Assembly (NCBI RefSeq): GCF_016650035.1
Contig: NZ_JAENWM010000023.1
Span: 1-45,029 of the forward strand
Length of the DNA: 45,029 nt
Source of the DNA: Clostridium sp.
GTDB lineage: Bacteria > Bacillota > Clostridia > Clostridiales > Clostridiaceae
Direction: 5' to 3'
Shown here: piece by piece, positions 7,547-30,526 of the stretch
How the letters are laid out: every line of letters begins with the position of its first letter
How positions within the stretch are numbered: position 1 is the first letter of the stretch
The notes under the pieces: model-generated
What the model was told of the DNA's origin: nothing
The model's database searches: none
Seen by the model: the letters and a program-made list of their open reading frames with translations, nothing else
Translations under genes and position numbers: made by a program

Positions 7547-7568
7547 AAATAAGGACTCCCTTCAACTA

Positions 7569-8897: not shown

Positions 8898-8898
8898 T

Positions 8899-10966: not shown

Positions 10967-11730
10967 AGTTTCCACGCTGCTTTCCCACTATTCCATAATT
11001 CATCTAATTCATTTTTATCTCTTAATGTATCCATAGGTTTCCAAAATCCTTTATGTTTATATGCATTTAGTTTATTTTCTTTAGCTAAATTTTCTAGTGG
11101 TTCTTTTTCAAAAACTGTTCTGTCATCTTTAATATAATCAAAAATTTCAGGTTCTAGGACAAAAAAGCCTCCATTTATCCATGCCCCATCACCCGCAGGT
11201 TTTTCAATAAAGCTTTTTACATTAGCACTACTGTCTATAGTTAAAGCTCCAAATCTTCCCGAAGGTTGTACTGCTGTTACTGTAGCTATTTTACCATTAC
11301 TTTTATGTAATTCTAATAATTTGTTTAAATCAACATCTGCTACGCCATCACCATAAGTTAGCATAAACGTTTCATTATCAACATAATCTTTTATTCTTTT
11401 TACCCTGCCACCTGTCATTGTGTTTAATCCAGTATCAACAAGGGTTATTTTCCATGGTTCCGCCTTGCTATTATGATACTCAATATCCCCATTTTTTAAA
11501 TCAACAGTAACATCACTCATATGCATAAAATAATTTGCGAAGTATTCTTTTATAACATATCCTTTATATCCACAACATATAACAAAATCATTTATTCCGT
11601 AGTGTGAATAAATATTTAATAAATGCCATAAAATTGGTTTTTCTCCTATCTCAACCATTGGTTTTGGTTTTAAACTTGTTTCCTCACTTAGTCTTGTTCC
11701 GAACCCACCTGCTAATATCACTGCTTTCAT
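10957..11730 (-). CDS. rfbF: glucose-1-phosphate cytidylyltransferase
   Basis: 257 residues, the standard length. It makes CDP-glucose from CTP and glucose 1-phosphate, opening the 3,6-dideoxyhexose pathway. The nucleotidyltransferase signature is LAGGFGTRLSEET (6-18), followed by KPKPMVEIG, LTYGDGVADVD (metal site) and WINGGFFVLEPE. This combination identifies cytidylyl- rather than thymidylyltransferases. It is the first gene of the tyvelose cassette in transcription order; upstream lie only a dead fcl fragment and a gap, so a promoter should be there, though I could not point to a convincing one. Confidence 0.95.
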   Translation of the reverse strand: MKAVILAGGFGTRLSEETSLKPKPMVEIGEKPILWHLLNIYSHYGINDFVICCGYKGYVIKEYFANYFMHMSDVTVDLKNGDIEYHNSKAEPWKITLVDTGLNTMTGGRVKRIKDYVDNETFMLTYGDGVADVDLNKLLELHKSNGKIATVTAVQPSGRFGALTIDSSANVKSFIEKPAGDGAWINGGFFVLEPEIFDYIKDDRTVFEKEPLENLAKENKLNAYKHKGFWKPMDTLRDKNELDELWNSGKAAWKLWD

Positions 11731-11750
11731 ATTAATTCATCTCCATACTT

Positions 11751-11864
11751 TTATTTTTTTTCAACGCCTTTGTATGCTTCTTTAATCTCTCCCCTAAGTT
11801 CTATTTTATGTTTTAATCCACTACCTTCAAGTTTACTTACATTCAAAAACTTTCTAGGTGTCCC
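11751..11864 (-). pseudogene. remnant of the 3' end of a GDP-L-fucose synthase gene
   Basis: The last 37 residues of a short minus-strand frame read GTPRKFLNVSKLEGSG and end KEAYKGVEKK. This matches the C-terminus of GDP-L-fucose synthases (compare [16 protein letters not shown] in the intact gene at 25212-26141). The 66-residue frame upstream of this part has no family resemblance, and the rest of the gene is missing. The fragment is divergent from the intact fcl in the window, so it is not a recent copy of it. It marks a recombination scar at the upstream edge of the tyvelose cassette. Confidence 0.75.
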
Positions 11865-12319
11865 TCTGGTTTTCCATCCAAATTTATTTCCATATTCATT
11901 CATATTAAATACACCATTTTCACCGTTTTTTGCTCCTATCCCCTTTTTCATGCTATTATCTAGGTCTTCTTGGATATTTGAAGTGTAATAAAGAGTTGCT
12001 ACTTGTAATTCACCTCTATTGCTATCGCTAATTTTTTTGTTTCTATTTTCCTAAACCTTTAACTTTTTAACTAACCTTTTTTTCTTCTTTATTTGCATCA
12101 AATATCCATTTATATCAGCCTTTCCACTCTTTCGTTCGTAATTTGTTCCTTTGCCCCGTGGACCATTGCTCGAGACTTACCTTTAGCTTTCTAACTTTTC
12201 AACCTAATTTCTGCGCTTCTAAATTCGCATCAGATGTTCCATCTTTGCATAGCCTACGCCTTGGTCGTTCACATACTGTTCACTAAAACTTCACAAACCC
12301 TGGACGCCTTGCTTCATAT
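11865..12319. other. 455-bp gap; right copy of cassette-flanking repeat
   Basis: No supported gene. A short frame covers 11865-11951 upstream of the fcl remnant, but it has no family resemblance. The part 12050-12220 is C/T-rich on the plus strand and shows no transposon motif I recognise. The repeat described at 3063-3138 recurs at 12225-12312, ending 8 bp before the stop of the next gene. Confidence 0.55.
12225..12312 (+). repeat. cassette-flanking direct repeat, right copy
   Basis: Starts TCGCATCAGATGTTCCATCT and continues with GTTCACTAAAACTTCACAAACCC and CCTTGC. It is a diverged direct copy of 3063-3138. The two copies enclose exactly the tyvelose genes, wzx and two GTs. Confidence 0.7.
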
Positions 12320-13096
12320 TTAATGAAATTTCTCAAACTTGTTTGCTTTTAATTTATTATTAATTTCCTTTTGTTTCTTCCAATTAAACACCAACAGTAT
12401 CGGAGAATTGAAAATGTTAACTCCATTATTTTTTATAATAAGCTGATCTTCCTTATATATTTTATTGATATTTCTAACATCCTTAGAAATTCCATGATCA
12501 GATGAAACTGCAACTATATAATCTAATTTTAAAAATTTATATTTTTTCAAATAAAGTCTTTGAAAAAAATCAAAATCTGCACTTATTTTATAATTGAGGT
12601 TAAACTTATATTGTTTTTGCAATTTTGTCTTCACAAAAGCTGCCTGATGATAAAATGGTTTTTTATATTTCAAATACCATGATGCGCGTGTCGTAAACTC
12701 ACTAATGCCATTACTCGTTTCCCATAATGCTCTCCCATATACTACATTAAAACTACCTAAATCGTTTGAAAAAACTTCTTTCAAAACATTACCATCAAAA
12801 AAAATATCATCTGAATTCATAAAATTAATCCAATGACCACGTGCTAATTCCGCACCCTTATTCATGGCATCATAAATCCCCTTATCATGCTCTGAAATCA
12901 ATTTGACTAAAATCTTTCTTTCTTTAAACAGAGGAATATATCTATTAATAATAGATAATGTATTATCTGTTGATGCTCCATCGATAATTATGTATTCATA
13001 ATCATTATAATTTTGTTCTAAAATCGATTTGAGTGTTTTTTCAATTGAATCTTGTGCATTATAACAAACAGTTACTATAGATATCATCGCTTCCAT
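12320..13096 (-). CDS. GT2 glycosyltransferase (WcaE-like)
   Basis: 258 residues. ISIVTVCYNAQDSIEKTL (5-22), IIDGASTDNT (37-46), EHDKGIYDAMNKG (69-81) and NSDD (94-97) form the pattern of the GT2 subgroup that includes colanic acid GTs such as WcaE. The enzyme should act in the cytoplasm on a nucleotide-sugar donor. ATG 13096 is supported by AAGGAG 8 bases upstream and overlaps the wzy gene end by 13 bp. It is the last gene of the right-hand part of the locus; the flanking repeat follows 8 bp after its stop. Confidence 0.88.
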   Translation of the reverse strand: MEAMISIVTVCYNAQDSIEKTLKSILEQNYNDYEYIIIDGASTDNTLSIINRYIPLFKERKILVKLISEHDKGIYDAMNKGAELARGHWINFMNSDDIFFDGNVLKEVFSNDLGSFNVVYGRALWETSNGISEFTTRASWYLKYKKPFYHQAAFVKTKLQKQYKFNLNYKISADFDFFQRLYLKKYKFLKLDYIVAVSSDHGISKDVRNINKIYKEDQLIIKNNGVNIFNSPILLVFNWKKQKEINNKLKANKFEKFH

Positions 13097-14277
13097 AATT
13101 TGTTCTCCTTAAATTTATTCACAACATTTGGTAATGTACTCTTCCATTTAGTATTAGTATATATTAGATACCCAAAAAATATAATTGAATAATTATAAAA
13201 TACATTTGTATATTGGCTTTCAAAAATACTGTATACAGCAAAGATTATTGTTATACATAGTTCTGCATAAAGATTTTCATCCATAAGATAACGACATAGT
13301 TTCGTATATAATATTATAAGAATTATAGCCGTAACTAAACCAAAAGAAAGAATAACAAACATATACATATTATCAAATGGGAGTGTTTTGGTTACATCAC
13401 GTCCAAAAAAATTCAATTTATAAGCTTGCAAATAATTTGCAGCAATTGTAAACCTCCCCGTTGTCCAATAATTTATTTGCATTATTAGAGAATTTTTATT
13501 ATTATTATTATTACTTACCAAACTAAAAACTAATGAAAGTAAAAACAAGCAGGCATATAAATATGTACATAATAGTTTAATAATTTTTACTTTTAAAATA
13601 TTAACCTTTAATAATAACCAACGAAATAGCAAAAGCATAACAATACAAAATAACCCTGCTCTTGAAAAAGTTGTTGTATAGAAATAGAAGCTTACTGATA
13701 TAATTATAATGATTTCAATTGTTTTCAGTCGGTAAAATCTACAATATACATACGAAGATACCAATATATAAAACATCCAATAAAATGTATTAGAATGATG
13801 AAACCCATATGCTATACATGTAATCCAAATTCCTGAAGAAGTTCCTTTTGACACACTTGTATTTTCAATAAGTCCCATCTTTAGGAACACAAATAACATG
13901 AAAAATAAAATTGCATAAGTATTTCTCAGTAGCTTAACAAATCTAGACGGTTCAATGGATTTTACAGTAATGATTGCAATAATATTAATTAAAAGGTATT
14001 CATTTTGTCTACCATTAATAATATATATTATACAAAAAAATAATAATATACCAGCTATTATATACAGTTCGCGTCTTGAATATTTTTTTCTTATAATTTC
14101 AAATATAGCAAAACCCAATGCGACCAACAAAAGCGCTGTGAAATATGATTCTACTCCTGAAACCGAAGTCACTTTCAATTGGCGAGAAAACATTCCAATT
14201 ATCATTAGTACAATAAAAATTGTTTCACCACATAATTGTCTACTACTATCTATGTTATTTATATCCCGTTTATTCAT
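13084..14277 (-). CDS. wzy: Wzy-like repeat-unit polymerase
   Basis: About 397 residues, almost entirely hydrophobic, with roughly 10-12 membrane segments and larger polar loops around GTSSGIWIT and the ~NYLQAYKLNFFG region. Wzy proteins have little sequence conservation; the call rests on topology, length and position among GTs, with a Wzx elsewhere in the locus. ATG 14277 is chosen over TTG 14292 since GGAG lies 9 bases before it; this start overlaps the upstream GT stop by 8 bp. It would polymerise lipid-linked repeat units outside the membrane. A ligase or another membrane protein cannot be excluded. Confidence 0.72.
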   Translation of the reverse strand: MNKRDINNIDSSRQLCGETIFIVLMIIGMFSRQLKVTSVSGVESYFTALLLVALGFAIFEIIRKKYSRRELYIIAGILLFFCIIYIINGRQNEYLLINIIAIITVKSIEPSRFVKLLRNTYAILFFMLFVFLKMGLIENTSVSKGTSSGIWITCIAYGFHHSNTFYWMFYILVSSYVYCRFYRLKTIEIIIIISVSFYFYTTTFSRAGLFCIVMLLLFRWLLLKVNILKVKIIKLLCTYLYACLFLLSLVFSLVSNNNNNKNSLIMQINYWTTGRFTIAANYLQAYKLNFFGRDVTKTLPFDNMYMFVILSFGLVTAIILIILYTKLCRYLMDENLYAELCITIIFAVYSIFESQYTNVFYNYSIIFFGYLIYTNTKWKSTLPNVVNKFKENKLWKR

Positions 14278-15175
14278 CTTTATATTCTCCAAATTTAATA
14301 TTAAAAAAATCTATCAGTTTGCCAAATGCAATATCATTTAAATTCCCATCCACATTGATATCCATCAAACTTACATCCTGTGAACGCCTAATTGTAAACC
14401 ACTCTTTAGTATATAAGTTAACTTTAACTACTTTTTTCTTTTTTATAAGAGAAACTATTTTTAACCATAAATCATCCGTAGTTGGACAAATTTCTTTTAT
14501 CACTTCATAATTTATGTCGACATTTTCAAAAAATAATGATGGGTATAATACTCCTCCAACTCCTGTAGGTAAAAGATGGTATGATGGTCCCTTAATGCCA
14601 TCTGGCCTCCATTCTTTATATGGAAGTATATTATAATCATTATCTACTACTATTTCACTTGCACGATAACAACATACACACTCTGGATTCTGATCATGTG
14701 TATCAATCAACTTTTCAATCCAATCTTCTGGATAAAGAACATCATCATCTGCCGTAATAATATTATCCTTTGGATAAAGTTTAGCGGTGTAAAATATTTT
14801 CTTGTATGATTTTAAATCCTCACAAAATCTAATATCTACCCCAATTTTTTCAAGATTTAAAAGTTTCCTAGGTAAAGATTCTTTATTCTTAAATTGAGAT
14901 TTCGCTAACCATAATATAACTTTATCTGCTGGGTGTGATTGTCTGAGAATACTCTCTAGACATAAATTAACCTTATCAATCCGAGCCGGAAAAGATGTCA
15001 ATGAAACTATTACTTCAGGTTGTCCAAATGACTCAGAAAGTTTAGTTGGATGATTCAGTATACAATATATTGGATATATCAAATTTGCAACTCTCCCAAG
15101 TACACGATTTTTTAATATCTGTGTTCTATTTGACTTTCCCCATGGTGTTACTAATTTATATAATAAATTTAGCAT
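14270..15175 (-). CDS. glycosyltransferase with DDD motif (capsule/O-antigen type)
   Basis: 301 residues. The motif VIVSLTSFPARI (55-66), then LCLESILRQSHPADKVILWL (71-90) and TADDDVLYPEDW (141-152), is the pattern of a GT-A-like group common in capsule loci. DDD 143-145 is the likely metal and donor site. The first 50 residues include a hydrophobic patch (VANLIYPIYCIL) that may attach the enzyme to the membrane. It overlaps the wzy start by 8 bp. Donor and acceptor are unknown. Confidence 0.75.
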   Translation of the reverse strand: MLNLLYKLVTPWGKSNRTQILKNRVLGRVANLIYPIYCILNHPTKLSESFGQPEVIVSLTSFPARIDKVNLCLESILRQSHPADKVILWLAKSQFKNKESLPRKLLNLEKIGVDIRFCEDLKSYKKIFYTAKLYPKDNIITADDDVLYPEDWIEKLIDTHDQNPECVCCYRASEIVVDNDYNILPYKEWRPDGIKGPSYHLLPTGVGGVLYPSLFFENVDINYEVIKEICPTTDDLWLKIVSLIKKKKVVKVNLYTKEWFTIRRSQDVSLMDINVDGNLNDIAFGKLIDFFNIKFGEYKDE

Positions 15176-15203: not shown

Positions 15204-16220
15204 TTATTTATTTTTTGGTTTTAGTATAACCCTATTCTCACTAAGACTATATTTACCACCTTTCAAAAGCTTATGCTTAAAAACCCACCAGCTGGGAATC
15301 CAAATGTATTTATGCATAGCCGGAGAAGCACTTCCAATCATCCAGCAGTTTCTATCACATTTTTTTGTGCATTTTCGAACCTCATTAGCTTGTTCGCCAT
15401 TCCATAGTTCATCCCAAGATTGTTCATGCAAATTGCCCATAACAGCTTTCTTTGCCATTCCATTACATGGAATAACATCACAGAATGGGTCAATGAAAAA
15501 AGCATTTTCCGACATATCACAAGGAAGTAATCTTTTATTTCCGTAAATGTAATTAATAAGTCCGTGGTTAAAATAAGCACGAAACCATTTTTTTGGAGAA
15601 TTACTTTTAAGTAGTTCATTAATCAATTTTTCAAAATTCTGTGCCACATGGTATTTATCAGAAATTTTATTATCTGTTTTTCTAAAATAGAAAGAATTGT
15701 GCAACGTAGCCGTTGCAAATTCCATACCCAGATTATTAGATAATTCATACAGAGGAACAAGATCTTCACAGTTCATATCCTGGACTGTCATGCCAAAGCC
15801 AACATCAGGATGAGACATTTCCACAAGAGTATTTAATCCAGTATTTGCTCTTTCAAATCCATTTGGAATACCACGAATTGTATCGTTTGTCTTCTGAAGT
15901 CCTTCAATGCTAATACGAATACCAATTTTAGGAAATTTTTTACATAGATCGATAATTCTATCAGTAAAATAACCATTAGTAGAAATAACAATACGGTCAG
16001 ATTTCTTGTACAGTTCTTCTACAATTTCAGAAATATCTGTCCTGATGAAAGGTTCTCCACCTGTAATATTAGTAAAAGCCATCTCTGGTAACTTTTTTAT
16101 GTCCTCTAATGTAATTTCTTCACTCTGCTTAGTCGGATCTTTATAACAGTCACACATATTACAATGTGCATTACAACGATAAGTAATGATCACAGTTCCA
16201 TAAAGTGTTCTTTTAGTCAT
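15204..16220 (-). CDS. radical SAM / SPASM-like protein in polysaccharide locus
   Basis: 338 residues. C16-x3-C20-x2-C23 in YRCNAHCNMCDC is the radical SAM [4Fe-4S] motif; TGGEPF at 53-58 contacts SAM. The C-terminal third carries a further set of Cys (FCDVIPCNGM, KCTKKCDRNC) with GNLHEQSWDELWNG between, a SPASM/twitch-type auxiliary cluster domain. ATG 16220 has GGGAGGGG before it. The substrate is unknown. Its place between the dideoxysugar genes and the GTs suggests it alters a sugar nucleotide or a repeat-unit residue (dehydration, epimerisation or deoxygenation by a radical route), but this is inference. The family also holds peptide-modifying enzymes; no precursor peptide was seen nearby. 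Confidence 0.85.
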   Translation of the reverse strand: MTKRTLYGTVIITYRCNAHCNMCDCYKDPTKQSEEITLEDIKKLPEMAFTNITGGEPFIRTDISEIVEELYKKSDRIVISTNGYFTDRIIDLCKKFPKIGIRISIEGLQKTNDTIRGIPNGFERANTGLNTLVEMSHPDVGFGMTVQDMNCEDLVPLYELSNNLGMEFATATLHNSFYFRKTDNKISDKYHVAQNFEKLINELLKSNSPKKWFRAYFNHGLINYIYGNKRLLPCDMSENAFFIDPFCDVIPCNGMAKKAVMGNLHEQSWDELWNGEQANEVRKCTKKCDRNCWMIGSASPAMHKYIWIPSWWVFKHKLLKGGKYSLSENRVILKPKNK

Positions 16221-16275: not shown

Positions 16276-17172
16276 TTATCGGCTTAAACACCATTCTTTA
16301 AAACATTTTTTGTCTTTAATTTTTAGAATAAGATCTAATTTATCAGAATCAAAAACTGTATCTCCAGACTCAATCTTCAAAGCTACTTCTGGCCATGGGA
16401 TAAATTCGATCTCTATACCATATTTTCCTGCAATCATTGTAGCCATCTCTAAGAGGCTATAATCTTCGCCACCAATATTAAAAACATCATTTACGCATTT
16501 TTCTGAAAGTCCGCCCACAATAAGTTTGTTACACAAATCACCCATATAAGTAAGTGTTCTTCTTACACCACCATCTCCATACAACGTAATATTCTCACCC
16601 TTAGTTGCCTTACTCAGCATGAACTCAGCCGTCCCATAAGATGAAGCGTTAGGTATGAGCGTTCCGTAAGGAATACAAATTCTAAAAATACAATACTGAA
16701 CTCCATACACACGACTATACATTTCAATATACTGTTCGCAAGCATACTTATTAATAGCATAGATCGTCTTGAACTCTTTCTCGGCATCCTCTTTGAGTTT
16801 GCCATGCTTTCCTTTAAACACAAGCCTTGTTGAAGGAAATATAATTTTAGCCGCTGATTTCTGTACTCTGTATTCATTTAAAACATTAAGCAATGCTCTT
16901 TCATTGATATCTATAAAAACATCTGGGTTATCAAAACCATCAGCGCTGCCTGTTTTTCCAATAAACATAAAAATCACATCGCATTCAAAACTGATATTTT
17001 TCACAGCATCTTTGGAAAGAATGTTAATACTCTTGTAATTCTCAAGATTATCAATCTGGCATTCTTTATTATCGTACAAGGATAATTCGTATAATTCCGG
17101 TGATTGCATAAGTACATAAATAATGTTTCTTGCGATATAGCTATTAGCTCCTATTATCACTATCTTCTTCAT
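16276..17172 (-). CDS. NAD(P)-dependent SDR epimerase/4-ketoreductase
   Basis: 298 residues, extended SDR. The N-terminal IIGANSYIARNI is the nucleotide site. The catalytic set is FPSTR (112-116), Y138 and K142 in IYAINKYA; IGGEDYSL and the Rossmann fold are conventional. It ends the run of 2,3-dehydratase, MocA reductase and cupin genes and would suit the final C4-keto reduction of a 2,6-dideoxyhexose nucleotide. A 4-epimerase or other reductase is equally possible on sequence alone. Spacing to the cupin gene is 24 bp, so co-transcription is likely. Confidence 0.75.
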   Translation of the reverse strand: MKKIVIIGANSYIARNIIYVLMQSPELYELSLYDNKECQIDNLENYKSINILSKDAVKNISFECDVIFMFIGKTGSADGFDNPDVFIDINERALLNVLNEYRVQKSAAKIIFPSTRLVFKGKHGKLKEDAEKEFKTIYAINKYACEQYIEMYSRVYGVQYCIFRICIPYGTLIPNASSYGTAEFMLSKATKGENITLYGDGGVRRTLTYMGDLCNKLIVGGLSEKCVNDVFNIGGEDYSLLEMATMIAGKYGIEIEFIPWPEVALKIESGDTVFDSDKLDLILKIKDKKCFKEWCLSR

Positions 17173-17196
17173 ATTATCTCACCCGCTATTCTTTGA

Positions 17197-17592
17197 TTAA
17201 ATTATGGTTTCACAAAACTCTTTGTAATCTTCATAGTATTGATTTTTTTCATACTGCCTGCTTGCCAAAGCTAGTAGAACAGAATCAGAAGAGAAATTAT
17301 ATGTTTTCATCCATGTCATATGTGGAATATATAACCCCACGTTAGGAGATGACAGTTCGAAAACTACTTTTTTTATTCCATCATCTACTTCAATACTTGA
17401 TGTACCGTAAACGTTAATTAAAACAAAGTCGGTATTTTTGTTTGCATGATCTGCCCTTGTCGCACCTTTCGGTGTGCTGAAAATGTAAAATACTCTTTTG
17501 ATTTCAAAAGGAATTTCTTTCATGCCTTCCATAAACACAATACTACCATCTTCTTCATTCACTTGACTGAAATAAATTAATTTACAATCCAT
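17197..17592 (-). CDS. FdtA/QdtA-like cupin (sugar 3,4-ketoisomerase family), active-site variant
   Basis: 131 residues with the WxcM/FdtA cupin pattern: RVFYIFSTPKGATRADHANK (33-52), VYGTSSIEVDDG (61-72), GLYIPHMTW (86-94) and SVLLALASRQY. Family members shift the keto group of dTDP-4-keto-6-deoxyglucose between C4 and C3. They normally have HAHK where this protein has HANK: His49 is kept and the second His of the catalytic pair is Asn51. No aminotransferase or acetyltransferase for Fuc3NAc or Qui3NAc is nearby, so the usual context of FdtA is absent. It may isomerise or epimerise a 2,6-dideoxy keto sugar, or have lost the original activity. The fold assignment is firm, the reaction is not. 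Confidence 0.8.
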   Translation of the reverse strand: MDCKLIYFSQVNEEDGSIVFMEGMKEIPFEIKRVFYIFSTPKGATRADHANKNTDFVLINVYGTSSIEVDDGIKKVVFELSSPNVGLYIPHMTWMKTYNFSSDSVLLALASRQYEKNQYYEDYKEFCETII

Positions 17593-17634
17593 AAGTTTTC
17601 TCCCAACATTTATACAAAACCTTCTCCAACAGAA

Positions 17635-18669
17635 CTACTTCCTAGCCATTCTCAAAAATTCGTCTATCAACGTAGCCTGCTTAACAAGTACTTGATAGTT
17701 TTCTTTTCTTACATCTTTATTCTTTATGCACTCCTGAAATCTCAAAATAGACTTTTCGAAAGTGTCATCAGCAGGAAGTTTTCTAACTTCATCTGTATTT
17801 TCTTTTCTTATGCTCATTTGAGGAACAAATCCAACTGGCGCCGTGAAAACTCTCCCTGCAGTCAAAGACCCTTTGCTACCCCATACTTCGAGTTCACATT
17901 TATAGTCATTGTCCATACCAAAAGAAATTTGAACTGTAGTTCCTTTATCGTTAACCATCACAGCAGATCCGTATATATCAACTTCAAATTCATCAATATA
18001 GTTCAGTTGTGCATATGCAATTCTTGCTGTTTTCCCAAGAAGCATCGATCCGTATTTAATAGTATACCCACCGGCATCCATTAAGGCACCACCACCGAGA
18101 TCTTTATTATATCTGAAATCATTTGCCGCTCTTCTTGGAAATCCAAAGGAAAGCCTATATACCCTTATTCCACCAATTTCTCCACTCTCAACCAGTTCAT
18201 TGATTGCTATTAACTGGTCATGGAAAGCAAACATATAGTTCTCATGAAGAGCAAGTCCTTTTTCTTCTGCTAATATAGCCAGCTCTACTGATGTTGCTAC
18301 GTCAGTTGTGGAAGGTTTTTCAATTAATACATGCTTACCACTTGCAAGAGCAATCTTCGCCCATTTATAATGCAATGACGGAGGAAGCGGAATATAGAGT
18401 GCATCAATCTCATCAGAAGTAGCAATTGTTTGATAGCCATCAAAAACTTTACCTCCGTATACTTCGACAAATGATGCTGCTTTATCATGTTCGGCCTTAA
18501 GTACACTTTTTCTTACTCCTAGCGGAACATCTAAAGTTTTCTCTCCAAATCTTTCTTCTACGGTACATACAGCAATTCCTACATATTCAAATTCTGTTGT
18601 ACTTTTTAGTGCTGGCATGAATCTGCGTAACGCGATTTCTGACGGACAAATAACACCTATTCTTATCAT
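17635..18669 (-). CDS. Gfo/Idh/MocA oxidoreductase, probable sugar 3-ketoreductase
   Basis: 344 residues. N-terminal Rossmann domain (RIGVICPSEIALRRFMPAL), EKPSTT with Lys118 as the family's catalytic Lys, and GGGALMDAGGYTIKYG (192-207). Members of this family such as SpnN and KijD10 reduce the C3 keto group made by the NDP-hexose 2,3-dehydratase in 2,6-dideoxysugar pathways. The gene directly follows a 2,3-dehydratase gene here, as in those actinomycete clusters, which supports the same role. Myo-inositol- or UDP-GlcNAc-type dehydrogenases share the fold, so the step is inferred from context. The gene looks less AT-rich than the wzx and wzy genes (not computed). Confidence 0.8.
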   Translation of the reverse strand: MIRIGVICPSEIALRRFMPALKSTTEFEYVGIAVCTVEERFGEKTLDVPLGVRKSVLKAEHDKAASFVEVYGGKVFDGYQTIATSDEIDALYIPLPPSLHYKWAKIALASGKHVLIEKPSTTDVATSVELAILAEEKGLALHENYMFAFHDQLIAINELVESGEIGGIRVYRLSFGFPRRAANDFRYNKDLGGGALMDAGGYTIKYGSMLLGKTARIAYAQLNYIDEFEVDIYGSAVMVNDKGTTVQISFGMDNDYKCELEVWGSKGSLTAGRVFTAPVGFVPQMSIRKENTDEVRKLPADDTFEKSILRFQECIKNKDVRKENYQVLVKQATLIDEFLRMARK

Positions 18670-18741
18670 TTCACTTTTCCTCTCTATAATAAAAAATTAA
18701 TTCAACATACTGTAAAAAAACATTACCTTTAAAACAACTGT

Positions 18742-20133
18742 CTAAATATTCAATAGTGATAATAGGTTCCTCAATTGAATATTTAGACAGTTATTAATCT
18801 GAATCATATAATTTAAAGTACTATAATCAACCCAGAAATATCCCTTAGGGAGTTCTCCCAATTCTTTTGCATCAAGTTTCATAATTACATTTCGATTCTG
18901 TTCATGATAGAATCGACCGCCTTCTTCTGAAAGCATTACATCTAATAGAATACCTTTCTTGTTTTCAAGATTTTTCCTGAAAACTTTTTCAATAGAATTA
19001 TCATAATACACGTAGTGTGTAGGATCTAACTGAATACTCGAACCGACTTCCAACATATCAAAAGAACCGATTTCCGACCTAGCTGTTACTAAATATTTTG
19101 CTACCCCCTCAATCTCGGTTACAATCAATCCAAACGTTGCCTGGCCGATAGCTTTAAATAACGGCTGCACCCATTGTTGTACCTCTCTTCCAGAAATTGC
19201 TATGTCATAATACCTCACCATAAAGTCAGCTTGTTTCTTACATGTTATTCCATATTCATCAATCTTCCAGTCAACCAACTGACTAAGTGGCACCGTGGCT
19301 ATTTCAATATCTTGAAACATTTTATAATTATTCACATACTGGTATATATCTATTATTGATGAAGCGGGTCTAGTTTTGAATGCTGACTTGAAAAATTCTT
19401 TATCAGTAAATAAAGTTTCTATATACGTCATTTCCTTCTCAGTAAACCTTGTAGTCATTAATGGAATACCTGAAAGAACTGTTCGTGTATCCATATTAAC
19501 AAGGTTATCAATCTCCATCAGCTTCTTGATCTGGCCAAGAGTCATCCACTTGAAGTTTGGATAAACTTCTAAGCTACCTGTAACCTCCATAATCATGTTA
19601 CGATTTCTTTTTTTATAGAAACGTGAAGCCTGTTCAGACTGAATCTGATCAAAGATAACATTGTACTTCGTAGAACTTTCAAAGTATTCTAAATAACTAG
19701 GTAGATTACCTCCATGCGCTCTTGTAAAATTACTTTTTGTAGCCTGAATGGTGGGCGAAATTTGTACACAATTCACGTTTCCCGGTTCTATCTTAGCCTG
19801 CATAAGAAAGTTCATTACACCATCAATTTCTTTACATACTATTCCAATATATCCAATTTCAGCCTGTATTATAATCGGCTGCTCAGATATAAATTTTTCA
19901 TTTTGAAAACGACGCATTCCTTTGATTGAAAAGAAACTCCGTTTACGATTCGAAACTTCCCCATTATAGTCATCATAAAACCAAAAATCACTTTTATATA
20001 TACTACATTCATTGATATTCACATATGTGGTTCTATTTAGATTTCCAATCCACTCTAAAAGGTCAGATGTAGAGTTTATATTACCTTCCGTATTCGCCCA
20101 GGATTCCAAAATTTTAATTAATGTTTTATTCAT
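18742..20133 (-). CDS. NDP-hexose 2,3-dehydratase (EvaA/SpnO type)
   Basis: 463 residues in two homologous halves, as usual for this family. The first half has QPIIIQAEIGYIGIV, MQAKIEPGN, QISPTIQATKSNFTRAH and YLEYF, the conserved core; the second half has a weaker copy (TEIEGVAKYLVTARSEIGSF, VGSSIQLDPTHY). EvaA-type enzymes eliminate the C2 hydroxyl from dTDP-4-keto-6-deoxyglucose, the committing step to 2,6-dideoxyhexoses. ATG 20133 is chosen over TTG 20148 because GAGGGGGAG precedes it. rmlA and rmlB in the same locus would supply the substrate. The family is best known from actinomycete antibiotic clusters, so its presence in a clostridial polysaccharide locus is unusual. Confidence 0.9.
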   Translation of the reverse strand: MNKTLIKILESWANTEGNINSTSDLLEWIGNLNRTTYVNINECSIYKSDFWFYDDYNGEVSNRKRSFFSIKGMRRFQNEKFISEQPIIIQAEIGYIGIVCKEIDGVMNFLMQAKIEPGNVNCVQISPTIQATKSNFTRAHGGNLPSYLEYFESSTKYNVIFDQIQSEQASRFYKKRNRNMIMEVTGSLEVYPNFKWMTLGQIKKLMEIDNLVNMDTRTVLSGIPLMTTRFTEKEMTYIETLFTDKEFFKSAFKTRPASSIIDIYQYVNNYKMFQDIEIATVPLSQLVDWKIDEYGITCKKQADFMVRYYDIAISGREVQQWVQPLFKAIGQATFGLIVTEIEGVAKYLVTARSEIGSFDMLEVGSSIQLDPTHYVYYDNSIEKVFRKNLENKKGILLDVMLSEEGGRFYHEQNRNVIMKLDAKELGELPKGYFWVDYSTLNYMIQINNCLNIQLRNLLSLLNI

Positions 20134-20154
20134 ATTTCTCCCCCTCAAAATTAA

Positions 20155-21387
20155 TTATAAATTCAGTTGGCGCTTATAAATTCCCATCAATTTCTCTAAA
20201 TAGATATCACCATCAAAAGTTATTTTTGCCTTTTTGTATATTAATACACTCATTCTTTCAAACTCTTGATCATCCAACATTGAAACCCTTTTGAGAACAC
20301 CGCACAATGCATTTTCATTACCAGATTCAAACATGTAACCATTAACTCCATCATCTATAAGTTCTGGAAGACCACCAATATTACTAGCGATAACAATTTT
20401 ACTTTTAGCCATTGACTCTATTATAGAATATGGACAGTTCTCGTACCATTCAGATGGCACTATAATAGCCTTACTATTGCGTATATATTCTTCCATTTGG
20501 CTCCCATACACATACCCAAGGAAATTAACTCTATCTGATAGGTTATTCTTCCTAACATAATCTTTTACGATACCCTCTTCCGGTCCACCTCCAATTATAA
20601 ATAATGGAATATTTAATCCAGACTTTTTATAGCCTGAAATCAAAGTTAATACTCCCTTTTCTCTACTAAATCTTCCAAAATAGAGAAAATATTCTCCATT
20701 CACTATATTCAATTCAATTGACTTGGACGGAGGTAAAAAATTCGTAATACATTCAATGGGTGAATTCGTAAAATTAGCTTTACTTAATACTTGCTTATAA
20801 AATTCACATTCCGAAATATAAACATCTATTTTATTATAATAATTATTAAACTTAATAAATCTGTTTTCAAGTACCGCTAATATACTTTTTACTTTTGAAC
20901 CTTTTACACAACTTTTTTTTATACAACTGATTACACCCTTATCAATGCACTTTTGGCAGGTACCTTGTGGGGATAACATAGTGTAACAAGGGCATGCTAA
21001 AATCATATCATGGACACTATACACAATCGGAATATTATATCTTTTTATGACACCTATTATTGAAAAAGTTATTTGTTTATGAATTAAGCCCAAATGAACT
21101 ATATCAGGCTTTTCTTTTTCAATTAATTTCTTAATATTTCTTTTCGCCTCAAAAGAATAAAATATTTTACATGCATTTAAAATTTTTTTAATTACTCCCA
21201 TTTTTTTGTTATAATCCACATTTGAAACAAAAAATTCAGATTCACTACATTCAAAATTCTTTTCATCCTGCATTGCAAAATAAATTACTTCATGCCCTGC
21301 TTTCTTAAGAATTTCAGCTAATGCAAAATAGAAAGTCTCAGAGCCACCTTTAAGATAGTGGAATTTGTTTACTAATAATATTTTCAT
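20155..21387 (-). CDS. GT4 glycosyltransferase
   Basis: 410 residues, GT-B fold. The N-terminus MKILLVNKFHYLKGGSE is typical of GT4 enzymes; YSVHDMILACPCY, YFGRFSREKGV and VPSEWYENCPYSIIESMA carry the donor-binding strand and the E-x7-E region. A Cys-rich stretch (CYTMLSPQGTCQKC, then CIKKSC) around 140-165 is found in a subgroup of GT4 enzymes and may bind metal. It lies 21 bp upstream of the 2,3-dehydratase start and is probably co-transcribed. The sugar transferred is unknown. Confidence 0.88.
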   Translation of the reverse strand: MKILLVNKFHYLKGGSETFYFALAEILKKAGHEVIYFAMQDEKNFECSESEFFVSNVDYNKKMGVIKKILNACKIFYSFEAKRNIKKLIEKEKPDIVHLGLIHKQITFSIIGVIKRYNIPIVYSVHDMILACPCYTMLSPQGTCQKCIDKGVISCIKKSCVKGSKVKSILAVLENRFIKFNNYYNKIDVYISECEFYKQVLSKANFTNSPIECITNFLPPSKSIELNIVNGEYFLYFGRFSREKGVLTLISGYKKSGLNIPLFIIGGGPEEGIVKDYVRKNNLSDRVNFLGYVYGSQMEEYIRNSKAIIVPSEWYENCPYSIIESMAKSKIVIASNIGGLPELIDDGVNGYMFESGNENALCGVLKRVSMLDDQEFERMSVLIYKKAKITFDGDIYLEKLMGIYKRQLNL

Positions 21388-21425: not shown

Positions 21426-22574
21426 CTATTTTAAAGACTCATATACTCGAATGATTTTTTCAGATAATACATCCCAAGTGAAGAAATTCATAATTGTATT
21501 ATGAGCCCCTAGCTTTATTTTTTTAGTCAAATCTTTATCATTATATATATTGCATATATGATGAGCCCACTCTGTTGGATTCTTAGATCGAACAATAAAC
21601 CCATTTTTTTCGTTTTCAATTAGCATGTTTGAGCCACCATTTTCTGTTGTCACTGTTATTGCACCAAAATACATAGATTCTAATAGGACCATACCAAATA
21701 TTTCATATTCGGTAGGAAGTAAAAAACAATCCGCCTTTGTATATACAAGCGAAAGATATTTTTGTTCCATTTTATCAATTATGTGAATTAATTGTTTAAC
21801 ACCAATTTCATCAGCGTATTCCATACACTTTTTAACATATTCATCATTTCCATTACCAATCATAAATAAATGAACATTATTCTCCATCAATGAAACCTTT
21901 TTAAGAATATCAAATAATAATGAAATGTTTCGACGTTCCTCTAATCTACCAACGTACAAAAGAACTAATCCATCTTTAAAACTTTCCATTGTATCAATAA
22001 AATCTGGTATGTTTTTCTCCTTATTTGTAGACAATGCCTCTAAATCTACACCAACACCAACAGCCTTTATATTTTCTTCTCTTATTCCTTTAGAAATCAA
22101 AAATTTCTGTGCCAAATTGCTCTTCACTATAAACCTCGTACCAAGTTTTATATATCGTTTTAAAAAGAATATATCAAACACTTTGCTCATCAAATTATAT
22201 CTTTTATTAAACTCCGAATAATAAGGGCCATGATAAATTACCGTTTTATCCGGATATTTTTTAGCTAATACCCATGATTGATATTGATTATATTCACATG
22301 GCTGAATTACGTCATATTGTTGAATTAAAAAATCAAGATTATTGTATATAGCGTTTTTCAGAATATTTTTCCCTTTACGATAATAAACATTTATATGTTT
22401 ATCATGCTCAAAAACATAATCTATTATCCTTTCCTCTTTATCAGCCCAAAAAACGATATCGCAAATATGCCCTTTTCGAACTAATGCTTTAGCAAGTCCA
22501 ATTTCTTGAATATTATATGTATTAAACTGAACATCCATATAATTAGGATAGTTTCTTATAATTAATATCTTCAT
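21426..22574 (-). CDS. GT4 glycosyltransferase
   Basis: About 382 residues, GT-B fold. MKILIIRNYPNYMDVQ at the N-terminus, LLYVGRLEERRNISLL in the middle and LLPTEYEIFGMVLLESMYFG near the C-terminus are the standard GT4 blocks. ATG 22574 is preferred over ATG 22592, as GAGAGAAG lies just before it and the mature start then fits the first beta strand. The stop of the upstream GT4 gene is at 22594, so the genes nearly touch. Donor and acceptor are not evident. Confidence 0.87.
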   Translation of the reverse strand: MKILIIRNYPNYMDVQFNTYNIQEIGLAKALVRKGHICDIVFWADKEERIIDYVFEHDKHINVYYRKGKNILKNAIYNNLDFLIQQYDVIQPCEYNQYQSWVLAKKYPDKTVIYHGPYYSEFNKRYNLMSKVFDIFFLKRYIKLGTRFIVKSNLAQKFLISKGIREENIKAVGVGVDLEALSTNKEKNIPDFIDTMESFKDGLVLLYVGRLEERRNISLLFDILKKVSLMENNVHLFMIGNGNDEYVKKCMEYADEIGVKQLIHIIDKMEQKYLSLVYTKADCFLLPTEYEIFGMVLLESMYFGAITVTTENGGSNMLIENEKNGFIVRSKNPTEWAHHICNIYNDKDLTKKIKLGAHNTIMNFFTWDVLSEKIIRVYESLK

Positions 22575-22593
22575 TGTTCTTCTCTCTCTCATA

Positions 22594-23772
22594 TTATTTC
22601 TGATAAAGCTTCTTGGTCATTTCAACCACAGTATCCCATTTATATTTTTCACAGACAAACTGAGAAGCCAAACTTTTATAGTGTCCAACAATATCCGCAT
22701 TATCAATAAGCCATTCTAGCTTTACTTTCAAATCTTCTACATCGGACCTTTTGAAAGTAACAGCCTTATCCTCCACAACTTCTTTACACTCATGAATATC
22801 CGATACCAAACAACAATTTCCATAACTCATTGCCTCTAACAAACTAATAGGCATACCTTCCAAATCTGAAGGTAGCACATACAGATAAGCATTGCTGTAA
22901 AGTTCTTCGAGCTCCTCACCTTGAACGAAATTAGTGAAAATCACCCTACCATCTTCAACCGATTTTCTTTTTATGTCAACCATGTAGTCACCAGTATGAC
23001 TACTTCCTCCTGCAACTACTAACTTTTTCAATGTGTCTACTCTCTTGTAAGCATCAATCAGATATTGGAGCCCTTTCTCAGGAACGATTCTTCCTAAAAA
23101 CAATATGTACTCATCTTTCTTTAACTCCCATTTCTTAGATATAACATCAGTTTCCCTAATTTCTGGTTTTTCAATACCATTTGGTATAAATTTAACTTCT
23201 CTCCCATATGTATCTAAAAAATACTGCTGGACATTCTTTGAAAGTACTATTACTTCATCTGCATACTTAGCCGCGATTTTCTCACCAAATTTTAAGTACT
23301 TAGTAGCAAAACCACCCCACTTAGCTCTCTGCCAATCAAGACCATGGATCGTTACCACCGTTCTTATACCAAGCAGATGTGGCAGCCATAACATTGCGCA
23401 TGGACCCTCTCCATGGTAATGTACACAATCATATCGTCCGAACAAAGCGCGGAATGTTGCTAAAGCTGAATAAACAAAAGCATTTAATTTTACGTTCTTA
23501 AAAGTAGGTATAGTTATAATTTTGATACCTTTATATTCAGAAATGTTCCCGTTGGATTTCCTATCGAAAGAACTACCTGAAACATGATGCCCTTTACGAT
23601 TGTAGACGTGAACTGTGTTCCCTGCTGCAACCAAGCGCGTGGAAAGTTCTTCTACAACAATTTCTATTCCACCTTCCCTGGACGGAATGCGCTTATGACC
23701 AATCATTGCAATTTTTAGGCCTGTATTGATTATACGATTTAAACCATTCTTCTGACTACCTTTGCTTTTCAT
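22594..23772 (-). CDS. GT4 glycosyltransferase, rhamnosyltransferase-like (Cps2T/DUF1972 group)
   Basis: 392 residues. IAMIGHKRIPSREGGIE and VEELSTRLVAAGNTVHVYNR open the protein in the manner of the Cps2T-like group often annotated as beta-1,4-rhamnosyltransferases; VTIHGLDWQRAKWG, FLGRIVPEKGL and VLPSDLEGMPISLLEAM complete the GT-B fold. These enzymes usually add the second sugar onto the lipid-linked primer. No rhamnose pathway is complete in the window, so the real donor may be another deoxysugar, for example GDP-fucose or the dTDP-2,6-dideoxyhexose. Confidence 0.85.
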   Translation of the reverse strand: MKSKGSQKNGLNRIINTGLKIAMIGHKRIPSREGGIEIVVEELSTRLVAAGNTVHVYNRKGHHVSGSSFDRKSNGNISEYKGIKIITIPTFKNVKLNAFVYSALATFRALFGRYDCVHYHGEGPCAMLWLPHLLGIRTVVTIHGLDWQRAKWGGFATKYLKFGEKIAAKYADEVIVLSKNVQQYFLDTYGREVKFIPNGIEKPEIRETDVISKKWELKKDEYILFLGRIVPEKGLQYLIDAYKRVDTLKKLVVAGGSSHTGDYMVDIKRKSVEDGRVIFTNFVQGEELEELYSNAYLYVLPSDLEGMPISLLEAMSYGNCCLVSDIHECKEVVEDKAVTFKRSDVEDLKVKLEWLIDNADIVGHYKSLASQFVCEKYKWDTVVEMTKKLYQK

Positions 23773-23811: not shown

Positions 23812-25179
23812 TTAAGAACTTCTGTCTTCAACTACTCCAACTGCAACCTGTAATATACCATTTTTACATTTCAATCCTTCAACCGCTTTACGACCCACAG
23901 AGTAATAATCAATCTCATACTTCTCTACCTCTTTTACATCATAACAATTTCTTCCATCATACACTATCGCTGTTTTCATAAAACTCACATAATCAGCTAG
24001 ATCAATTGCTATTATCTCTTTCCACTCTGTAAATATAAATGCTATATCAGCATCTTTTAATGCGTTCAGTGGACTATTAACATAACTTACTCCATTTGGA
24101 TACAACTTTTTAAAATTGTCAATCCCTATAGGATCATAAGCTACTATCTCTGCTCCCTCATCTAATAACCTTCTTACATTTGGTATAGAAGGAGCCTCTC
24201 TTAGATCATCAGTTCCAGGTTTAAATGTTAATCCAAGAACAGCTACCTTCATTCCTCTTAAACTTCCAAATCTTTGTTTAGCTTTTCTAAACAACTTGTA
24301 TTTCTGATTTTGATTAACCTCTATAGCAGCTTTTATAGTTTTAATTTCATACCCATGATCATTAGCTAGCCAATGAAGTGCTTTAGTATCTTTTGGAAAA
24401 CACGAACCACCATAACCTATACCAGCACTCAAGAACTTATCACCTATTCTAGGGTCATAACTCATCCCTTTAGCAACATCTTCTATATCTGCACCAACTA
24501 TTTCACAAAAGTTAGCTATTTCATTCATATAAGATATTTTAAGTGCTAAAAAATCATTTGATGCATATTTTATCATTTCAGCACTTCTTCGTTTTGTTAC
24601 AACTATTGGTTGATTAAAAGGTTCGTAAACTTGAGTTAGTATGTTCTTAGCATTTTCTGACTCCACACCAATTACAATTCTACTAGCATGTAAAGTATCT
24701 CTAACTGCTGTTCCCTGAGCCAAAAACTCAGGATTTGAAGCTACTTCAATATGTATATTGCTCAATAAATTACGCTTTAAAATTTCTTCAATTCTATCAT
24801 TAGTTCCTATAGGTACTGTAGATTTCAATACAACCAAACAATCATTTTGTGCATTTTCGGCTATTTGCTGAACTACAAGAAATACATAATCTAAATTAGC
24901 TGACCCATCTTCTCTTTCTGGTGTTCCAACTCCTATAAATATAACATCCGCATCTTTATAAGCCTTTGAATAATCAGTAGTAAAATCTAATTTTTCAGCT
25001 TCATAATTCTTCTTTAATAATTCTTCTAGCCCAGGTTCATATATAGGCGAAATTCCTTTTTTCATCATACTAACCTTATTTTCATCTATATCTACACAGG
25101 TAACCTTATGTCCAACTTCTGATAAACAAACACCTGTTACTAAACCTACATATCCAGTACCAGCTACAACTATTTTCAT
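23812..25179 (-). CDS. ugd: UDP-glucose 6-dehydrogenase
   Basis: 455 residues, standard length. It oxidises UDP-glucose to UDP-glucuronate with two NAD. MKIVVAGTGYVGLVTG is the NAD site, YEPGLEELL and STVPIGT are family motifs, and GGSCFPKDT (about 258-266) holds the catalytic Cys. It supplies an acidic sugar for the polysaccharide. It is followed closely by the GT4 genes and preceded by fcl, all in one direction. Confidence 0.95.
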   Translation of the reverse strand: MKIVVAGTGYVGLVTGVCLSEVGHKVTCVDIDENKVSMMKKGISPIYEPGLEELLKKNYEAEKLDFTTDYSKAYKDADVIFIGVGTPEREDGSANLDYVFLVVQQIAENAQNDCLVVLKSTVPIGTNDRIEEILKRNLLSNIHIEVASNPEFLAQGTAVRDTLHASRIVIGVESENAKNILTQVYEPFNQPIVVTKRRSAEMIKYASNDFLALKISYMNEIANFCEIVGADIEDVAKGMSYDPRIGDKFLSAGIGYGGSCFPKDTKALHWLANDHGYEIKTIKAAIEVNQNQKYKLFRKAKQRFGSLRGMKVAVLGLTFKPGTDDLREAPSIPNVRRLLDEGAEIVAYDPIGIDNFKKLYPNGVSYVNSPLNALKDADIAFIFTEWKEIIAIDLADYVSFMKTAIVYDGRNCYDVKEVEKYEIDYYSVGRKAVEGLKCKNGILQVAVGVVEDRSS

Positions 25180-25211: not shown

Positions 25212-26141
25212 TTACTTATAATTTTCCCTAAACCACTCATAACTCTCCCTAACTCCATCCTCTAATTCAACCCCATACGTCCATCCAGTCCCCTCAAGCT
25301 TACCAACATCCAAAAGCTTCCTCATAGTCCCATCCGGCTTCTCACTATTAAACTTAAGTTCGCCTCTAAATCCAACAACTTCCTTAACCATCTCAGCCAA
25401 TCCTCTTATAGAAACCTCTTTCCCAGTTCCAACATTAACATGCTCTTCCCCATCATAATTCTCCATCAAATAAACACAAGCATCAGCCATATCATCCACG
25501 TACAAAAACTCTCTAAGTGGCTTTCCACTTCCCCAAACCTCTACGAAAGGACTATCACTAACCTTAGCCTCATGGAACTTCCTAATAAGCGCAGGCATAA
25601 CATGTGAATTATTCAAATCAAAATTATCATTAGGCCCATAAAGATTAGTTGGCATACAGCTTATAAAATCGTCACCAAACTGCCTCTTAAAAAACTGACA
25701 CATTTTAAGTCCTGCAATTTTAGCTATTGCATAACCTTCATTTGTTGGTTCAAGATATCCAGAAAGCAAATATTCTTCTTTAATTGGTTGCGGACAATTC
25801 TTAGGATATATACAAGAACTTCCTAAAAACAAAAGCTTTGTAACTTTAAAATCATGTGATGCTTTAATAATATTATTTTGCATCTCCATGTTTTCATAAA
25901 TAAAATCAGCTGGATATGTACTGTTAGACCCTATTCCACCAACCTTCGCTGCTGCTAGAAACACATATTCTGGTTTTTCTATTTCAAAAAAACTTCTAAC
26001 AGATTTTTGATCCATTAAATCTAATTCACTATGAGTTTTTCCTATTATGTTCGTATATCCTTTTTCTTTTAAGTTTCTAACTATAGCTGAGCCAACTAAT
26101 CCTCTATGACCTGCTACATATATTTTACTGTTCTTCTCCAT
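25212..26141 (-). CDS. fcl: GDP-L-fucose synthase
   Basis: 309 residues from ATG 26141, chosen over TTG 26156 because GGGAG lies 8-9 bases before it. It converts GDP-4-keto-6-deoxymannose to GDP-L-fucose by epimerisation and NADPH reduction. [13 protein letters not shown] is the nucleotide site; FLGSSCIYP, the NEGYAIAKI segment (Tyr and Lys) and [12 protein letters not shown] are typical of the family. It follows gmd by 15 bp, the usual gmd-fcl pairing. A second, dead 3' fragment of an fcl gene lies at 11751-11864. Confidence 0.95.
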
Positions 26142-26156
26142 GTGTATCACTCCCAA

Positions 26157-27230
26157 CTATTTTGTAGTTGCTGCTTCTAAATATTGACCCAATGACATTC
26201 CAGCTATTTCTCTCATGTCTCCATCTATCATCATCTTAATTAATTCTCTAAAACTTACTTTTCTCTCCCACCCAAGTTCCGTTTCTGCCTTTGTACTGTC
26301 TCCCCAAAGAAGTTCAACTTCAGCGGGTCTAAAGTATCTTGAATTTATGTCCACTAAAAGTTTTCCTGTTACTTTATCGTATCCTTTTTCTTCTACTCCT
26401 GTACCTTTCCATACTATATCTATATCTACTTCTTTAAACGCAAGTTCAACAAATTCTCTAACTGTGTGAGTTTCATTTGTTGCTATAACATAATCTTGAG
26501 GTTTATCTTGTTGAAGCATTAACCACATAGCTTCTACATAGTCTCCTGCATATCCCCAATCTCTTTTAGCATCCATATTACCTAGTGAAAGTTTTTCTTG
26601 TTTCCCTGCCATTATACCAGCTACAGCTCTAGTTACTTTTCGTGTAAGAAAAGTCTCTCCACGTCTTGGCGACTCATGATTAAAAAGTATTCCATTGCAG
26701 GCAAACAAATCATAAGATTCTCTATAATTTATAGTGATCCAATAAGAATATAACTTTGCCACTCCATAAGGACTCTTTGGGTAAAAAGGAGTTTTTTCAC
26801 TTTGTGGAGCTGTTCCTGGAATTCCTCCAAAAAGCTCTGATGTAGACGCTTGATAAAATTTGCAGTTTATTCCGCTTTCTTTTAAGGCATCTAATATTCT
26901 AAGAGTTCCCATAGCATCCGTATCTGCAGTATATTCAGGAACATCAAAGGACACTTGCACATGACTTTGAGCTCCTAAATTGTATATTTCATCTGGCCTT
27001 ATTTTTTCTATCAATCTATTCAAGTTACTTGAATCTGTTAAATCACCATGATGTAAAAATAATGTTTTATTACCTATTTCACGCTCATTGAATAAATGAT
27101 CTATCCTTTTTGTATTAAAAGAGCTGGCTCTTCTTATTATTCCATGAACTTCATAACCCTTTTCTAATAAAAACTCTGTTAAATAAGACCCATCCTGTCC
27201 AGTTATTCCAGTTATTAGTGCTTTTTTCAT
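26157..27230 (-). CDS. gmd: GDP-mannose 4,6-dehydratase
   Basis: 357 residues. [35 protein letters not shown] and [16 protein letters not shown] are hallmark Gmd motifs, with Tyr and Lys of the SDR site in the last. It makes GDP-4-keto-6-deoxymannose for fcl. The 148-bp gap before it (27231-27378) contains no gene and could hold an internal promoter; I saw no strong -35/-10 pair there. Confidence 0.96.
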
Positions 27231-30487: not shown

Positions 30488-30526
30488 ATGTATCCCATCC
30501 CCCAATAATTTATAATTACTCAAATC

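Follow-up and report, generated by a model that had tools for sequence, protein, structure and literature searches.

The 45,029-nucleotide window of Clostridium sp. DNA analysed here carries on its minus strand a polysaccharide locus extending from 3314 to 31195, within which lies a four-gene cassette that may provide a route to a 2,6-dideoxyhexose. The source genome is a draft of 167 contigs, 100% complete and 1.7% contaminated. As a preliminary description of this DNA had set out, the four genes are adjacent on the minus strand. They run in transcription order from a 2,3-dehydratase through a Gfo/Idh protein and an FdtA-like cupin to a short-chain dehydrogenase/reductase (SDR), with intergenic gaps of 72, 42 and 24 bases:

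18742-20133, minus strand: nucleoside diphosphate (NDP)-hexose 2,3-dehydratase of the EvaA/SpnO type with two Hexose_dehydrat domains (Pfam; PDB; catalytic residues)
17635-18669, minus strand: Gfo/Idh/MocA sugar 3-ketoreductase of the KijD10 type (Pfam Gfo/Idh/MocA domains; PDB)
17197-17592, minus strand: FdtA-family cupin (3,4-ketoisomerase family) with HAN for HAH (Pfam FdtA, 141.7 bits, full length)
16276-17172, minus strand: extended SDR, putative 4-ketoreductase (Pfam Epimerase, 87.2 bits)

At the level of sequence the product of 18742-20133 is confirmed as an EvaA-type NDP-hexose 2,3-dehydratase by its family, its domain build and its catalytic glutamate pair. Hexose_dehydrat matches in two stretches, as had been predicted, with a total of 428.8 bits against a cut-off of 25, and the sole match in the PDB is EvaA (4j7g/4j7h; E 4.7e-74). 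E116 and E167 align with E139 and E190 of EvaA and are both invariant in the 10 sequences aligned; a passage of the review PMC8987622 reports complete loss of activity on mutation of these EvaA residues. The ATG at 20133 is preceded by GAGGGGGAG, a ribosome-binding-like stretch, so this start fits better than a longer TTG start at 20148. No second member of the Hexose_dehydrat family was found in the source genome, its two matches being both domains of this one open frame.

The best PDB match of the Gfo/Idh/MocA protein is 3rbv, 'Sugar 3-ketoreductase', at 205.6 bits, with the next different protein at 79 bits; we take 3rbv to be KijD10. By alignment the protein keeps the lysine of the EKP motif, K118, and Y202, which is Phe in entry 3rc7, and both residues are unchanged across 71 relatives selected by identity. 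In the SDR, S114, Y138 and K142 are invariant in 25 sequences. We argue that the SDR would act on the C4 ketone, since in relatives lacking the cupin it adjoins the dehydratase and the Gfo protein.

The preliminary description regarded such chemistry as known mainly from actinomycetes, a view that does not fit the distribution of the dehydratase. One scan of genome contigs returned 401 pattern matches, 350 of them encoding a relative, and among the best 80 of these 350, which were examined, 76 are from Bacillota, with one each from Synergistota, Spirochaetota and Actinomycetota and one unlabelled; by title, 23 are from Lachnospiraceae and 12 from Oscillospiraceae. The family is patchy, occurring in 3 of 206 genomes of the same bacterial family and in 9 of 391 genomes of a class sample, the source genome being counted in both. 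Neighbourhoods were compared in 92 stretches, made up of these best 80 and 12 of 15 from the class and family searches, leaving out L049, L050 and L055, which hold pieces of a dehydratase at contig ends; as three of the 12 duplicate a member of the 80, the distinct stretches number 89. They extend no further than 10 kb from the match on each side (slightly more for the class and family ones), and contig ends truncate many of them. In 83 of the 92 (80 of the 89 distinct), a Gfo gene and the dehydratase are no more than 1.5 kb apart. Among the nine stretches without a nearby Gfo gene, L059 has one a few genes off and several others stop at a contig end. The SDR type of the window occurs within 4 kb of the dehydratase in 24 stretches, 22 of them without RmlC. 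For other genes the counts are 20 stretches with RmlC and 25 with DegT inside the same 4 kb, and 27 with another SDR type inside 5 kb. A mutase of the GLF type, that is, of the uridine diphosphate (UDP)-galactopyranose mutase family, lies within 6 kb in 20 stretches, 13 of them with RmlC.

A quick tree was built from 93 of 96 sequences, those with an aligned stretch of at most 380 residues being dropped. In it the dehydratase of the window falls in a clade of 30 rows supported by an SH-aLRT (Shimodaira-Hasegawa-like approximate likelihood ratio test) value of 100 and apart from three actinomycete plasmid copies, although the long branches of L038 and these three rows meet, a possibly false grouping of which the tree program (treekit) warned. 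Of the 29 other rows in the clade, 18 have the window's SDR type, two another SDR, nine no label and none a labelled RmlC, a label meaning 45% identity within 4 kb, so that a 38% RmlC-like gene in L058 and an RmlC in L061 go unlabelled. The dehydratase is 31.6-35.2% identical to the best 30 of 85 plasmid records, mostly Streptomyces. In the three actinomycete plasmid stretches, dehydratase and Gfo genes are adjacent in two; one of these two has rmlA and rmlB nearby and the other rmlB.

Two further arrangements were noticed among the relatives. The order dehydratase-Gfo-RmlC-SDR-GLF-RmlA-RmlB recurs, for example in L047 (10339-17726) and L054 (10121-17971), the two stretches in which GLF was checked by Pfam, and a GLF gene near the dehydratase hints at a 2,6-dideoxyhexofuranose. 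The gene upstream of the dehydratase looks like a GtrB glycosyltransferase of family 2 (GT2) with a hydrophobic C-terminal part in four of six stretches printed out (L057, L061, L062 and L066; Pfam GT2 in all four), suggesting lipid-linked decoration of a finished polymer in these relatives.

The cupin is the unusual member of the cassette. Its nearest PDB matches are FdtA-domain proteins, WlaRA, FdtA and QdtA, and it has HAN where FdtA-family proteins usually have an HxH motif (HAH) in the active site. The second histidine of this motif, needed for activity in FdtA, is thus an asparagine. HAN also occurs in WlaRA (5tpv), which its depositors name a 3,4-ketoisomerase, so activity of the HAN cupin is not excluded. 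FdtA-type cupins were found in 16 of the 391 class-sample genomes, the source genome included, and among 19 other copies from the class search ten have HAN and nine keep the second histidine. The HAN copies form a clostridial group (L137-L144, L152 and L155), and a DegT-family gene lies in nine of the ten stretches around them, adjacent or one gene away in eight. These DegT calls rest on blastp at 23-28% identity to reference proteins, and in L165 the open reading frames were picked on the strand opposite at the cupin. No 3-aminotransferase partner was found in the source genome among its three strong DegT matches, which are RfbH, the sole DegT protein of the window, and one gene each of the LegC and WecE types; ten further matches at no more than 37.5 bits lay outside that comparison. 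A Fuc3N/Qui3N pathway for the cupin was rejected on the same ground. None of the 92 related stretches has an FdtA cupin, also at a looser cut-off, and one of the nine dehydratase-positive class-sample genomes (G290) has a HAN cupin on another contig.

The substrate of the dehydratase would be supplied from within the locus, where, as described before, two genes for deoxythymidine diphosphate (dTDP)-4-keto-6-deoxyglucose score over their cut-offs:

28499-29407, minus strand: rmlA, glucose-1-phosphate thymidylyltransferase (TIGR01207, 484.7 bits, cut-off 360.65)
27379-28428, minus strand: rmlB, dTDP-glucose 4,6-dehydratase (TIGR01181, 467.4 bits, cut-off 365.1)

A search for RmlC (PF00908) gave no match in the source genome and was positive in 11 of 14 control genomes. 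The RmlD profile gave 17 matches in the genome, none over the cut-off (best 170.8 against 224.05), and the best of them sits among open reading frames that were read, without scanning, as a V-type ATPase and other unrelated genes. With no RmlC match and no RmlD over the cut-off, a rhamnose route was rejected, and the earlier statement that the intermediate has no rhamnose outlet in the locus holds for the genome as well.

Our results support a model in which the product of the locus is likely a surface polysaccharide with a 2,6-dideoxyhexose among its sugars, probably one of the D series. This agrees with the core of the preliminary description, a 2,6-dideoxyhexose route with no rhamnose route, and is supported by family membership, solved homologues, active-site residues and the conserved pairing of dehydratase and Gfo genes. 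Each reaction of the model, like the role of the cupin, the D configuration and the place of the sugar in the polymer, is predicted from these genes. RmlA and RmlB would make dTDP-4-keto-6-deoxyglucose, which the 2,3-dehydratase would turn into dTDP-3,4-diketo-2,6-dideoxyglucose by removing the hydroxyl at C2; reduction of C3 by the Gfo/Idh protein and of C4 by the SDR would then yield a dTDP-2,6-dideoxyhexose. At a guess, the cupin may act on the 2,6-dideoxy intermediate, moving its keto group between C3 and C4 and thereby setting the stereoisomer. A glycosyltransferase of the locus would put the sugar into a lipid-linked repeat for export by Wzx. As no RmlC-type 3,5-epimerase was found in the locus or the genome, C5 should keep the D configuration; D-series candidates are sugars of the olivose, oliose, digitoxose or boivinose type.

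Several observations weigh against this model. The rmlA and rmlB genes lie approximately 7 kb from the cassette. A second rmlA-rmlB pair, 79% identical to that of the window, lies on another contig (L041 4065-5970, contig C140 of G000) alongside NeuB and LegC-type genes, and a third contig carries a WecE-type transaminase (L173 5284-8451, contig C37 of G000; 517.6 bits, cut-off 375), another candidate user of dTDP-4-keto-6-deoxyglucose. RmlA and RmlB therefore do not point to the cassette alone, and of the earlier claim of no rhamnose outlet and a fitting consumer, the second part has to be softened in that the cassette is not the sole candidate consumer. PDB searches with the SDR return SDRs of many functions, and 3- and 4-ketoreduction cannot be told apart by family. 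This SDR type is also found together with RmlC in L046, which is too short for the tree, and in L088, which belongs to another clade; L058 has its RmlC-like gene directly upstream and L061 has RmlC elsewhere in the stretch, so that this SDR type need not mean a D sugar. In L045, L068 and L087 the dehydratase is followed directly by an SDR with no Gfo gene between. Finally, we know of no 2,6-dideoxyhexose route in which an FdtA-like cupin is a step. The earlier proposal that the four genes follow the order of 2,6-dideoxyhexose chemistry is supported for the dehydratase, Gfo protein and putative 4-ketoreductase and needs correcting for the cupin, for which we know of no such step and which has no counterpart in the 92 related stretches.

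The WecE-type gene has as neighbours a GtrB-like transferase (150.8 bits, profile cut-off 529) and an ATP-grasp/L-amino acid ligase-like gene. The remaining genes of the polysaccharide locus, in transcription order, are as follows:

30527-31195, minus strand: initiating sugar-phosphate transferase, Bac_transf (Pfam, 216.9 bits)
29438-30523, minus strand: mannose-1-phosphate guanylyltransferase-like, ManC (TIGR01479, 311.6 bits, under the cut-off of 372.95)
26157-27230, minus strand: gmd, guanosine diphosphate (GDP)-mannose 4,6-dehydratase (TIGR01472, 572.3 bits, over the cut-off)
25212-26156, minus strand: GDP-L-fucose synthase-like (NF047922, 489.7 bits, just under the cut-off of 500)
23812-25179, minus strand: UDP-glucose/GDP-mannose dehydrogenase family (Pfam)
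22594-23772, 21426-22592 and 20155-21387, minus strand: three family 4 (GT4) glycosyltransferases (Pfam)
15204-16220, minus strand: radical SAM/SPASM protein, next gene after the SDR (Pfam)
14270-15175, minus strand: weak GT2 match (Pfam, 25.0 bits, cut-off 23.3)
13084-14292, minus strand: membrane protein, candidate Wzy polymerase (6 hydrophobic segments; position)
12320-13096, minus strand: GT2 glycosyltransferase (Pfam, 86.5 bits)
10957-11730, minus strand: RfbF, glucose-1-phosphate cytidylyltransferase (TIGR02623, 449.3 bits, cut-off 300.25)
9977-10975, minus strand: SDR, putative cytidine diphosphate (CDP)-paratose-type 4-reductase (position between rfbF and rfbG)
8899-10023, minus strand: RfbG, CDP-glucose 4,6-dehydratase (TIGR02622, 517.1 bits, cut-off 278.45)
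7569-8906, minus strand: RfbH/E1, CDP-4-keto-6-deoxyglucose 3-dehydrase (NF011936, 729.2 bits, cut-off 423; PDB 3bcx, 573.4 bits, and 3bb8, 569.3 bits)
6521-7546, minus strand: CDP-tyvelose 2-epimerase (PDB 9rl0, 560.3 bits, and 1orr, 475.7 bits)
5143-6507, minus strand: Wzx-type flippase (Pfam Polysacc_synt, 49.3 bits; 12 hydrophobic segments)
4227-5171 and 3314-4210, minus strand: two GT2 glycosyltransferases (Pfam)

Genes for what seem to be three deoxyhexose pathways, each on a different nucleotide, are present in the locus. All of rfbF, rfbG, rfbH and the 2-epimerase of a CDP-tyvelose set are present within 6521-11730, and the SDR among them has a weak best PDB match, a GDP-6-deoxy-D-lyxo-4-hexulose reductase (90.9 bits). 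A gap of 589 bases between rfbF and the GT2 gene (11731-12319), the longest in the locus, the next longest being 148 bases, sets this CDP sub-operon apart. With this set present as well, the locus would be expected to yield two kinds of dideoxyhexose. In all, six clear glycosyltransferases (three GT2 and three GT4) and one weak GT2 match were counted, and the candidate Wzy gave no match in Pfam or NCBIfam. Copies of the radical SAM/SPASM protein were seen in two further dehydratase loci, L118 (69% identical) and L049 (41%). A transposase at 771-1982 (DDE_Tnp_1; IS4-like, under the NCBIfam cut-offs) adjoins the downstream end of the locus, and addA/addB-type helicase-nuclease genes (35205-42678; Pfam matches to UvrD and ADDB_N) lie past its upstream end.

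The rival explanations concern how much of the cassette belongs to one route, and which nucleotide and end product that route has. The cupin, perhaps with the SDR, could serve a separate 6-deoxyhexose formed via a 3-keto intermediate, leaving the dehydratase and Gfo protein alone in the 2,6-dideoxy route. The company of the clostridial HAN group would suit this, as its members, with their DegT neighbours, probably belong to amino-sugar routes rather than with 2,3-dehydratases. We nevertheless consider it unlikely, since the cupin is set tightly between Gfo and SDR genes in the window, and in many relatives the same SDR type follows dehydratase and Gfo in the absence of any cupin, which ties the SDR to the dideoxy route. 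A 2,3,6-trideoxyhexose would result if RfbH also removed the C3 hydroxyl after the dehydratase and Gfo protein had acted, a reaction that SpnQ and UrdQ reportedly perform in antibiotic pathways. RfbH is present in the window, and RfbH-type proteins may join such a route elsewhere: the genes rfbB-rfbH-dehydratase-Gfo are contiguous on a plasmid of Streptomyces lavendulae, and in a Treponema metagenome-assembled genome (L079 2405-9483) rfbF-rfbG-rfbH and a small gene that looks GtrA-like by eye are followed by dehydratase-Gfo-SDR. The RfbH of the window, however, lies approximately 7 kb from the cassette in the sub-operon with the CDP-glucose 4,6-dehydratase, its best solved matches are CDP-sugar E1 enzymes and the strong CDP-tyvelose 2-epimerase accounts for its presence, making a trideoxy product very unlikely.

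The same Treponema stretch bears on whether the 2,3-dehydratases of this clade use CDP-4-keto-6-deoxyglucose from the CDP set and so produce a CDP-2,6-dideoxyhexose, since its CDP genes immediately precede the dehydratase and no RmlA in its genome exceeds the cut-off. That genome does have an RmlB fragment (263 bits over 189 of 321 positions, under the cut-off), so its rml operon may simply be broken in the draft. A cytidylyltransferase over the cut-off was found in 19 of 28 genomes with a close dehydratase (the source genome included) against 46 of 391 in the class sample, a comparison that ignores kinship, and in four of the nine dehydratase-positive genomes of that sample. RmlA, on the other hand, exceeds its cut-off in 25 of the 28. 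Of the three without it, G604 has two RmlA end-piece matches and an RmlB over the cut-off, and G599 and G601 have a partial RmlB under it, which is in no case decisive for a CDP substrate. Given also that rmlA and rmlB stand in the same locus in the window, we regard a CDP-linked pathway as highly improbable. Least probable of all, and barely plausible, is that the sugar is attached to a small molecule and not to a polymer. The 2,3-dehydratases named in the review PMC8987622 come from antibiotic pathways, yet no polyketide or peptide synthase was found among the 35 window proteins scanned by Pfam, and Bac_transf, Wzx, a candidate Wzy and the glycosyltransferases counted above are all encoded in the locus.

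The enzymes are of known kinds, and it is the polysaccharide setting and the cupin that make the variant. With the actinomycete EvaA/SpnO/TylX3 and KijD10/SpnN enzymes the cassette shares the family, the two domains, the glutamate pair, the pairing of dehydratase and Gfo protein and the presence of rml genes in the cluster, but it sits in a polysaccharide assembly locus rather than an antibiotic cluster and has an FdtA-like cupin added. Other clostridial cassettes share the dehydratase-Gfo core and, in most labelled rows of the nearest clade, the SDR type, whereas they lack the FdtA-like cupin and many have RmlC with another SDR, a DegT aminotransferase or a GLF mutase. The cupin resembles the 3,4-ketoisomerases FdtA, QdtA and WlaRA over its whole length and has its HAN in common with WlaRA and ten of the 19 class-search copies, but differs from them in a locus without a 3-aminotransferase and from FdtA in the asparagine. 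Similarly, the CDP-tyvelose set agrees with the CDP-3,6-dideoxyhexose pathway of Salmonella and Yersinia in rfbF, rfbG, rfbH and the CDP-tyvelose 2-epimerase, and differs in being clostridial and in lying next to a predicted 2,6-dideoxyhexose route. According to PMC7725333, tyvelose, paratose and abequose occur mainly in Salmonella and Yersinia.

A modelling-tool preprint (PMC12874011) includes olivose in its list of bacterial monosaccharides. No report of a 2,6-dideoxyhexose in a clostridial polysaccharide was among the papers listed by our literature searches, which drew on an incomplete library and in two cases listed 25 of 4,480 and 15 of 5,608 papers, the term '2,6-dideoxy' not being searchable as written. 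2-Deoxy sugars are acid-labile and standard hydrolysis could destroy them. This lability, together with how often the gene kit occurs among Clostridia, suggests that these surface sugars may have escaped notice as a class. We tentatively propose, as a joint reading that is possible rather than probable, that 2,6-dideoxyhexose polymers are widespread in gut and rumen Clostridia by way of a modular kit, to which the window adds a recruited HAN cupin and the combination of 2,6- and 3,6-dideoxyhexose in one polymer. If this is true, a dehydratase-3-ketoreductase core would be completed by an SDR alone for a D-pyranose or by RmlC and an SDR for an L sugar, with an aminotransferase for an amino sugar or a GLF-type mutase for a 2,6-dideoxyhexofuranose as other add-ons. 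The variant in the window, so far single, would then be a HAN cupin from amino-sugar pathways acting on a 2-deoxy keto sugar. If confirmed, the kit could be used to trace such polymers genetically, would place EvaA-type enzymes in a new setting and would possibly add a new reaction to those of FdtA-type cupins.

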